Assembly: GCF_019457515.1 (NCBI RefSeq)
Contig: NZ_CP080421.1
Span: 2,480,001 to 2,544,000, forward strand
Source: Shewanella mesophila
GTDB lineage: Bacteria > Pseudomonadota > Gammaproteobacteria > Enterobacterales > Shewanellaceae
Direction: 5' to 3'
DNA length: 64,000 nt
The notes under the pieces were generated by a model. That model was not told where the DNA came from. It saw only the letters and a program-made list of their open reading frames with translations, and made no database searches. A program made the position numbers and the translations under genes. Below, one piece after another: positions 31,027 through 33,160 of the stretch. How positions within the stretch are numbered: the first letter of the stretch is position 1; each line of letters starts with the position of its first letter.

Positions 31027-31431
31027 ATGGGAAAGCTTTATAGTCGATACGGCTCGAAAAGCCTAAAAACGGTTGAACATTTTGTATTAATCATTATTGC
31101 GATAGCGACGATCGTTGCTATTGGTCAAGAGGTTGTCCACATTATTCAGATGCGCGAAGTGGCATTAGCGGATCTACTGCTATTATTTATCTACCTTGAA
31201 GTACTTGCCATGGTTGCGAACTATGCAGAATCGGGGAAATTACCGGTTCGAATGCCGCTTTATATTGCGATTGTGGCGTTAGCTCGATATTTAATCCTCG
31301 ATATGAAAGGCATGGATGATTGGCGTATCTTTGCGATTTCGATATCAACCATAGTATTAGCTGGCACTGTCATCGTCATTCGCTGGGGACAACTAAAACT
31401 TCCCTACCCTAGGAAAGAGGACGATCATTAA
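31027..31431 (+). CDS. psiE: PsiE family membrane protein
   Basis: A 134-residue inner-membrane protein with four hydrophobic segments (about residues 17-38, 46-66, 77-95 and 99-120). The family motifs LLLLFIYLEVLAMV and LPVRMPLYIAIVALARYLILD are present. In E. coli PsiE is induced by phosphate starvation; its molecular role is unknown. CGAG stands about seven bases before the ATG. A perfect CRP site lies upstream, so carbon control is more likely than phosphate control here. Confidence 0.9.
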   Translation: MGKLYSRYGSKSLKTVEHFVLIIIAIATIVAIGQEVVHIIQMREVALADLLLLFIYLEVLAMVANYAESGKLPVRMPLYIAIVALARYLILDMKGMDDWRIFAISISTIVLAGTVIVIRWGQLKLPYPRKEDDH

Positions 31432-31745
31432 CCCCATGGGTACGGCGCTGATAAAGCGCCGTATTACTATATACAGCTTACTAATTGAATCTTACTACGT
31501 GTGATCTCTAATTACTTTTAATTACTCCCCCCTCTCTTAAAACCGAGTTAACCCACAGCCCCCTAGTTTTAGACAAATCCTAGTGTTAGCACTAAGCCAA
31601 ACTCCCCTTCATTAACATTTATACAATCAAGAATAAGCACGAAAATTTATTACTTCAGGGCTTATCAAAGGATATTGTTTCGATGTAAAACTGTGCTAAG
31701 TTTAAAAGGTTACGTGTACCTAAATTTATACCAAGGAATAATCTG
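31432..31745. other. Intergenic stretch between psiE and the PilZ gene
   Basis: It holds one strong hairpin (ACGGCGCT at 31442-31449 with AGCGCCGT at 31455-31462, loop GATAA) just after psiE, without a T run. The rest is AT-rich and must include the promoter of the PilZ gene, which I cannot place with confidence. No reading frame of worth is seen. Confidence 0.5.
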
Positions 31746-32048
31746 ATGGACCAACACCAAGAAGAATTTGATGAGCGCCGTAATTCACTCCGAGTAGATA
31801 TGGAGGCAGAAAGAATCCAAGTGTCTTGGGTCGACAGCAGCGGTAACAGTCAAACAGATGAAGGCATTTGTATCGATTTAGCACGTCGTGGGGTACTGAT
31901 CGAATACAAAAATCCCTTTACGATAGGTGAACTACTTGAAATCACCTTCAATCCGGGTAGCGATAAACAAAATCGCATTAAAGCTCAAGTATGCCGCTGT
32001 CACGAATATAAGCAGCAAAGTTATCATATAGCAGCACAAATTATTTAA
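31746..32048 (+). CDS. PilZ-domain protein
   Basis: A 100-residue single-domain PilZ protein, so a likely cyclic-di-GMP receptor. The N-terminal arginine motif is RNSLR (residues 12-16), fitting RxxxR. The second motif, normally D/NxSxxG, reads DLARRG (residues 44-49): the serine is replaced by alanine, which may weaken binding. AAGGA is eight bases before the ATG. It is 112 bases before the ParA-like gene on the same strand. The target it would act on is unknown. Confidence 0.85.
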   Translation: MDQHQEEFDERRNSLRVDMEAERIQVSWVDSSGNSQTDEGICIDLARRGVLIEYKNPFTIGELLEITFNPGSDKQNRIKAQVCRCHEYKQQSYHIAAQII

Positions 32049-32160
32049 TCATTTCAGGTGACTAAATTATACGAGTTTAAGCAGTATCTGTAACTCTGTT
32101 CTATACTGATTAGCACTTATCTAGCTCAGCGTAGTGCACATGTTCGAGGGAGAAAAATGT

Positions 32161-32829
32161 ATGATTCTGCTTGTAGGTGGTGAAAAAGGAGGAGCGGGGA
32201 AAAGCTGTATGGCGCAAAATATTGCTGTCCATATTACCCAAAAACATAACGCGAATGTGCTAATGGTCGACTGTGATCCGCAACGCACTACATCTGATTG
32301 GATCCAAGCACGTAATGAAGATCCTAACCTTCCTGCAATTAACTGTATTCAACTCTATGGTAAAATACGTAACGATTTATTGGGTTTAGACGAGCGCTTT
32401 GATTATGTCATTGTCGACTGTGGTGGCCAAGATAACCTAGCGATGCGGGCAGCTATGTCTGTAGCAACCTATGTCGTATTGCCACTTCGCCCCAAAAGAC
32501 GGGATTTAAAAACACTTCCCCATATGGAAGATATGCTCAGCACCTGCAAAATGGTTAACCCCAAAATGGTCGCCACCATTGTTATGACCCAATGCCCGTC
32601 GCTCCCGAGCCAATATAAGCGCATATTAGAAGCAAAAGAGGTCGTAGAGTCTTTTGGATTAAGAGTGTTAGACCATGTCACCTTCAGCCGAAATATCTAT
32701 GATGATAGTGAGGAGCAAGGGTCATCGGTACTCGAAATAGAACCTGACGGTAAAGCCGCCATGGAAATACGCGCTATTGCTGACGAACTATTTGCAATAC
32801 CACCAGAAAATTCTTATGAGCTTAACTGA
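32161..32829 (+). CDS. Orphan ParA-like ATPase
   Basis: A 222-residue deviant-Walker ATPase of the ParA/MinD group. The Walker A motif GGEKGGAGKS has the signature lysine, the A' motif is VDCDPQRTTSDW, and Walker B is YVIVDCGGQ. There is no N-terminal DNA-binding domain, as in small (type Ib) plasmid ParAs. It is not beside gidAB-parAB and is not a MinD. Its stop overlaps the start of a ribbon-helix-helix protein by 14 bases, which is the usual form of ParA with a small centromere binder. GGGAG is eight bases before the chosen ATG; a start nine codons earlier is less good. Confidence 0.88.
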   Translation: MILLVGGEKGGAGKSCMAQNIAVHITQKHNANVLMVDCDPQRTTSDWIQARNEDPNLPAINCIQLYGKIRNDLLGLDERFDYVIVDCGGQDNLAMRAAMSVATYVVLPLRPKRRDLKTLPHMEDMLSTCKMVNPKMVATIVMTQCPSLPSQYKRILEAKEVVESFGLRVLDHVTFSRNIYDDSEEQGSSVLEIEPDGKAAMEIRAIADELFAIPPENSYELN

Positions 32830-33160
32830 TCTTAAACGGCGCAAACCTAAGCCTCGAAAAAAACTCACCATCGAAGAGTTTATAGAAGATGCCAATAACT
32901 ACGCATTTGGTCAGCCAAGCCTTGCTGGGCGAACCAAGAAAAAGCGCAAAGTTAACGAAACCCTAGGCTTAAAAAAGCAATCGACCAAAATTTTCAAACA
33001 CGCAACCTTTACCCTGACTGAAAGCAGCATCACAGAACTCAATCAGTTAGCAAAAAGTAACAAGGTGGCTAAATCTCGCCTGATCCGTATGATGATCACC
33101 GAATTCGCCAAGATGTCTGAGGCCGATCTACAACAACTTATTGAAAACAGTCATGACTGA
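32816..33160 (+). CDS. Ribbon-helix-helix partner of the ParA-like ATPase
   Basis: A 114-residue basic protein. The N-terminal half is rich in Lys and Arg (KRRKPKPRKK; RTKKKRKV). The C-terminal half fits a ribbon-helix-helix fold: a strand KHATFTLT (residues 61-68), helix ESSITELNQLAKSN, and helix KSRLIRMMITEFAKM (86-100). Small RHH proteins paired with type Ib ParAs bind centromere DNA and stimulate the ATPase through a basic N-terminus. The 14-base overlap with the ParA gene shows coupling. The stop is three bases from the stop of the convergent YecH-like gene. DNA target unknown. Confidence 0.82.
   Translation: MSLTDLKRRKPKPRKKLTIEEFIEDANNYAFGQPSLAGRTKKKRKVNETLGLKKQSTKIFKHATFTLTESSITELNQLAKSNKVAKSRLIRMMITEFAKMSEADLQQLIENSHD

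Follow-up and report, generated by a model that had tools for sequence, protein, structure and literature searches.

What a ParA-type ATPase and its DNA-binding partner do on a bacterial chromosome, directly behind a gene for a PilZ-domain protein, is the question raised by a locus of Shewanella mesophila. Many ParA ATPases lack a known cargo, and little is known of how second messengers regulate them. In the ParF/ParG system, ATP-bound ParA binds the nucleoid, and ATP hydrolysis by ParA is stimulated by the basic tail of the ribbon-helix-helix (RHH) protein ParG, as it is by the tails of other partner proteins. The locus was analysed within a stretch of 64,000 nucleotides, here called the window, to which the positions below refer. 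With confidence a little short of even, we read its three genes as a single functional unit, in which a chromosomal ParA-RHH pair of the ParF/ParG kind recruited a c-di-GMP receptor and acts on the nucleoid; both its cargo and its control by c-di-GMP we infer.

The PilZ, ParA and RHH genes form a cluster on the forward strand at 31746-33160, flanked by psiE/suhB on one side and yecH/btsSR/cstA on the other. The first gene (31746-32048, +) encodes a PilZ-domain protein of 100 amino acids, a candidate c-di-GMP receptor, and is followed after 112 nt by the gene for a 222-aa ParA-family ATPase of the small ParF-like type (ParA1; 32161-32829, +), the 3' end of which overlaps the start of the gene for a 114-aa RHH protein (32816-33160, +) by 14 nt (32816-32829, +), an overlap seen in most relatives from several families. 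The sequence-only reading had described a ParA with deviant Walker A overlapping a basic RHH protein, with PilZ 112 nt upstream on the same strand, and all of this was found where it had been placed. We set the ParA start at ATG 32161 and not at GTG 32134 of the mechanical open reading frame, because the former is preceded by a Shine-Dalgarno-like GAGGGAG and gives the N-terminus common to the relatives; the RHH start codon is ATG 32816. Upstream of PilZ, a small membrane protein of the PsiE family (PF06146) is encoded at 31027-31431, with a score far under the NCBI PsiE equivalog cut-offs.

The ATPase carries the motifs of the ParA/ParF-like superfamily, namely a deviant Walker A (GGEKGGAGKS), Walker A' (MVDCDPQ) and Walker B (VIVDCGG), matches PF13614 with 55 bits, and resembles the ParF structure 4dzz with an E-value of 1.3e-12. 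Its score of 135.4 bits on NF041546 (ParA_partition) lies under the NCBI equivalog cut-off of 180, as do those of its plasmid, paralogue and Colwellia relatives (136-144 bits). The third protein belongs to the RHH (MetJ/Arc/CopG) class, judging from its profile and from weak fold matches: the single sequence scores 18.3 bits on PF12651, which is sub-threshold (cut-off 21.6), the family profile matches CopG with an E-value of 5e-4, and the predicted model, with pLDDT above 90 within the RHH helices, has CopG, Arc, ParG and CdbA as its nearest folds, all of them weak (best Foldseek E 0.9). Conservation scored over 142 relatives revealed an invariant basic start M-S-L-x-D-L-K, a FIxDAxxYAxG motif, a variable basic linker and the C-terminal RHH domain.

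The PilZ assignment rests on PF07238 (32.1 bits, cut-off 22.5), and the c-di-GMP signature is almost complete. RxxxR is present in all 137 ParA-linked PilZ relatives and [DN]x[SA]xxG in 136 of them; in the window the first reads RNSLR and the second DLARRG, with alanine at the serine position of DxSxxG, a replacement shared by 64 of the 137 linked proteins, the window copy included. The AlphaFold model (pLDDT 84) is a six-stranded beta-barrel without a C-terminal helix, and its nearest folds are mostly PilZ structures, several with c-di-GMP, none of them below an E-value of 0.001. The genome search with PF07238 missed the window's own PilZ, and the number of PilZ genes that it returns is a lower bound.

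The central observation is how firmly PilZ is tied to this ParA. ParA1 occurs in 85 of 117 Shewanella genomes (83 with at least 81% identity, a partial match in genome G097 and a divergent copy in G007), and a match to the window PilZ in 101 of the 117. All 85 ParA1 orthologues, the two atypical ones included, have PilZ upstream on the same strand at a distance of 48-226 nt, and the comparison over Shewanella genomes that had been proposed as a check thus found PilZ never missing where ParA1 is kept. Orthologues with 70-80% identity are present in four further families of the order, again with PilZ before and RHH after. PilZ is found at 78 of the 80 named loci, mostly from Colwelliaceae and Shewanella; at one exception (L144) the contig starts inside ParA, and the other (L156) is a metagenome-assembled genome without a PilZ open reading frame. 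The earlier suggestion of a tie to c-di-GMP is therefore borne out as far as gene linkage goes, with a single untruncated locus among the 80 lacking PilZ; the part of it that concerns control by the messenger keeps the tentative standing given above.

The unit is found in some eight genomic contexts that are unrelated to each other and that outside Shewanella include radC/rpmB (Colwelliaceae), ftsN/hslV (family f9), relA, tkt, a rluF-like gene and others. Besides the window there are 136 PilZ-linked ParA loci, a count in which the same species is included from two sources, with 57 in the Shewanella-type context, 67 at radC-rpmB, five at ftsN-hslV and seven in about five more. At two loci (L048 and L050) the PilZ and ParA genes overlap by 4 nt. 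Since the gene order is kept in about eight contexts and the genes even overlap in two loci, inertia of synteny does not explain the linkage. On the maximum-likelihood ParA tree, the PilZ label needs two changes, one gain and the loss at L156, vs 14.4 in shuffles, and ParA2 (see below) and the other ParAs without PilZ fall outside the linked clade, though the joining node has no more than 80/80 support. In Colwellia sp. TT2012, a single contig carries the complete PilZ-ParA-RHH unit twice (L139 and L116), at a distance of about 59 kb, and the second copy adjoins transposase fragments and a radC-like remnant.

The regions before PilZ and between PilZ and ParA hold promoter-like elements. The gap between the two genes contains a conserved internal element of the extended -10 type, TGTTCTATACTGATTA (32097-32112, +; exact site G000:C1:2512097), identified from the intergenic alignment, and Shewanella gaps share tGTTCTATACT, running on into TTAA in many species. 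The sigma-S extended -10 consensus has been given as KCTAYRCTTAA (quoted in PMC5650638). At least nine of its 11 positions are matched in the gap of 51 of 57 Shewanella loci, 15 of them perfectly, vs about seven in shuffles; the 57 loci are related, some being duplicates, and do not amount to 57 independent cases. A possible -10 element of PilZ itself, GCTAAGTTTAA (approximately 31705-31715, +), is sigma-S-like by resemblance and reaches at least nine of 11 positions in 25 of the 57 loci vs about seven expected. In Colwelliaceae, a sigma-S-like -10 upstream of PilZ was not seen, and the PilZ-ParA gap has a weaker, more sigma-70-like CTATAAT. The conserved 11-mer TGTTCTATACT occurs in the genome as two exact copies, one of them here and one where a fumarate-hydratase-like gene begins, and we take it for a promoter element and not for a scattered binding site because it has only these two; it was also considered as a dispersed centromere and rejected on the same count and on its fit to a promoter -10. 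The unit is thus probably expressed under sigma-S in Shewanella, as judged from these motifs, and the internal promoter would allow PilZ and ParA to be expressed separately.

From these elements a working mechanism can be proposed. By analogy with ParF/ParG, ATP-bound ParA would coat the nucleoid DNA, and the basic N-terminal MSLxDLKK tail of the RHH protein would trigger ATP hydrolysis by ParA. The near-unbreakable link to PilZ suggests that c-di-GMP modulates the ParA cycle, which PilZ may switch in response to the messenger through contact with ParA or with RHH. The most likely cargo would be DNA to which RHH binds elsewhere on the chromosome, away from the operon, so that nucleoid regions would be organised or placed in dependence on c-di-GMP; in Shewanella, a sigma-S-type promoter would probably induce this in stationary phase. 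A more specific version, in which c-di-GMP, via the dedicated PilZ, gates a nucleoid gradient of the ParA type and chromosomal or protein cargo is rearranged or anchored at the motile-sessile (or stationary) shift, is somewhat less probable than the general reading.

We think it unlikely that the unit is a transcriptional module, in which RHH would be a repressor or nucleoid-associated protein with ParA as a co-factor and without positioning, and PilZ would tune expression by c-di-GMP. The CopG repressor is the nearest relative of the RHH profile, a single promoter-like region is conserved ahead of ParA, and there is no centromere-like repeat array, all of which would suit such a module; against it, the space from PilZ to ParA showed no conserved operator besides the -10 element. 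Purifying selection acts strongly on all three genes, with dN/dS, taken from the nearest relative (L007) because synonymous sites are near saturation in more distant pairs, of about 0.01 for ParA, 0.04 for RHH and 0.16 for PilZ, and a ParA so much more conserved than RHH or PilZ tells against the module too.

The Shewanella groups in which RHH is gone speak against the transcriptional module as well. When the 4-9 kb around the locus were searched by profile, RHH was not found in at least three groups with PilZ-ParA (L033; L079/L173; L076-L078 and L095), and ParA looks intact there, Walker A included. The E-[FL]-N C-terminus common to ParA1 proteins is a by-product of the overlap with RHH, and the remnant 'EF' at the ParA1 end of some RHH-less genomes suggests that RHH was lost secondarily. 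RHH2, the paralogue described below, could stand in for it in these Shewanella, or the partner that ParA cannot do without may be PilZ. The PilZ-linked ParA of genome G007 (L055, 3992-5051) is degenerate, with GGERDGSGKS in place of the Walker A, 59% identity and a very long branch; an RHH gene was not found downstream of it, and the protein is probably inactive.

About equally improbable is that PilZ merely shares a transcript with ParA-RHH and acts elsewhere, e.g., on a flagellar motor or chemotaxis protein. A divergent PilZ (30-49% identity) is present without ParA1 in 16 Shewanella genomes, nearly always in the same spot: in 15 of them it lies near psiE, suhB, yecH or btsS (L056-L070), and the remaining one (L071) adjoins suhB/trmJ. 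Because these genomes keep a PilZ relative and not ParA1, PilZ can work without the ATPase, and stand-alone PilZ proteins such as MotL and FilZ are known to act on flagella or CheW (PMC8203827, PMC10304486). Mere co-location is hard to reconcile with a PilZ-ParA order that holds through unrelated contexts and is unbroken with ParA1 in Shewanella, and a flagellar gene stands beside the unit only at L175. The window PilZ is unlikely to be FilZ or MotL, as both sit in lateral flagellar clusters.

The ancestry of the pair is likely of plasmid type and old, since the plasmid loci nearest to it are ParA-RHH cassettes linked to repM. Close ParAs outside the order were not found in a class-level search of 369 gammaproteobacterial genomes, and the nearest plasmid ParAs, with 54% identity, are those of Acinetobacter plasmids, where they are divergent from repM and preceded by 22-bp repeats. 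Behind the Acinetobacter parA comes a gene for a 99-aa protein, which the RHH profile matches in the N-terminal LKKK tail as well as in the RHH domain; a search for plasmid homologues with the window RHH gave nothing above a marginal 28% match. A domesticated plasmid locus, one of the options of the sequence-only reading, is accordingly plausible as an old origin, and the recent relic that it had also allowed for is contradicted by the distance of the closest plasmid ParA and by the relatives from genome collections, which are on chromosomes or on contigs with housekeeping flanks, the window contig being a single one of 4.3 Mb. That the locus is a domesticated or relic partition system without a c-di-GMP role, harmless or spare, is very improbable and was already disfavoured: its closest relatives found outside the order are indeed plasmid cassettes, but it is under strong selection, sits on chromosomes across about five families with no rep gene, and has neither an array like the 22-bp repeats of the plasmids nor a conserved distance from the origin.

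The genome holds a second ParA-RHH pair, ParA2/RHH2, at G000:C1:2915288-2916416 (L006, 8289-9417) on the same 4.32-Mb chromosome, with the same overlapping arrangement and 68% and 38% identity to ParA1 and RHH, respectively. A match to the window PilZ was not found near ParA2, which differs from the window pair in this and in its separate clade of the ParA tree. Its neighbours we take, by sequence recognition and partly by profile, to be rlmN, a CorC-like gene, a mtfA-like gene, a HDOD gene and aceA; in many Shewanella, ParA2/RHH2 occurs without PilZ near rlmN, the mtfA-like and HDOD genes and aceA. With a conserved RHH partner and a second pair in the genome, the label of an orphan ParA that had been given to ParA1 does not quite fit. 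Neither pair is close to oriC. A weak third hit for ParA (28%), at 4307 kb toward the end of the contig and adjacent to dnaA once the map is closed to a circle, is presumably the usual ParA of the chromosome.

The preferred explanation is at its weakest where it concerns the cargo. Other points against it are the Shewanella groups with PilZ-ParA in which RHH was not found, the PilZ relatives kept without ParA1, the internal promoter, the alanine in the second motif of the window PilZ, and RHH and PilZ fold matches that are weak one by one. A search beside the window genes, where looking for RHH binding repeats had been suggested, found no direct-repeat or tandem array, and no candidate RHH sites were identified. 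Measured along the ori-ter half, the position of the unit is 0.68-0.84 in Shewanella vs 0.08-0.21 in the other families. The missing array and the varying distance from oriC make a cis-acting chromosome centromere unlikely, and a partition locus for the chromosome origin is disfavoured by the same difference between families. Because a centromere beside the operon is unlikely, the cargo of the proposed unit would be elsewhere, at distant RHH sites, through general nucleoid binding as in CdbA, or as a protein.

Each part of the unit has counterparts in known systems. Type Ib partition loci (ParF/ParG of TP228 and the repM-linked ParA-RHH of Acinetobacter) likewise encode a small ParA and, behind it, a small RHH protein whose N-terminal tail is basic and which in the Acinetobacter plasmids is homologous to the window RHH in both parts, whereas the window locus is chromosomal, includes a PilZ gene and has no rep gene or adjoining repeat array. 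In Myxococcus xanthus, the RHH protein CdbA and the stand-alone PilZ protein CdbS, which lacks the C-terminal helix, take part in the control that c-di-GMP exerts on the nucleoid (PMC7156744, PMC10313047), a precedent which indicates that RHH and PilZ proteins can meet in this kind of control. CdbA/CdbB with CdbS resemble our unit in combining RHH with a PilZ of this type, and CdbA turns up as one of the weak fold matches to the RHH model, but they are described without a ParA partner gene, CdbS is not encoded in an operon, and CdbA itself binds c-di-GMP. Positioning systems of the A/D ATPases (McdAB of carboxysomes and others) also pair a ParA-type ATPase with a dedicated partner protein; here, by contrast, the partner is a DNA-binding RHH protein and no cargo gene is nearby, and a survey paper of multiple cargoes is silent on both PilZ and RHH. 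In cellulose synthesis, BcsQ is a ParA/MinD-type ATPase that acts with the PilZ domain of BcsA, but ParA1 is not BcsQ, scoring 29.2 bits on TIGR03371 against a cut-off of 157.85 in a locus without bcs genes (its neighbours being suhB, psiE, yecH and btsSR). A defence system was rejected, with only a marginal, meaningless match to Csx3. In the open-access literature searched for PilZ together with ParA, c-di-GMP, RHH or Shewanella, we found no paper on a PilZ-ParA-RHH linkage; the parts are known, and their conserved combination is not described there.

The conserved linkage, kept with hardly an exception in several families of bacteria that are mostly marine, suggests that a lifestyle signal may control what a ParA motor positions on the chromosome. 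In culturable marine bacteria, the conserved unit names the partner of a ParA, its likely signal and a growth phase. It would possibly be the first case of c-di-GMP control of the ParA-based organisation of the nucleoid or of other cargo, and, if true, would connect c-di-GMP directly with positioning by ParA.
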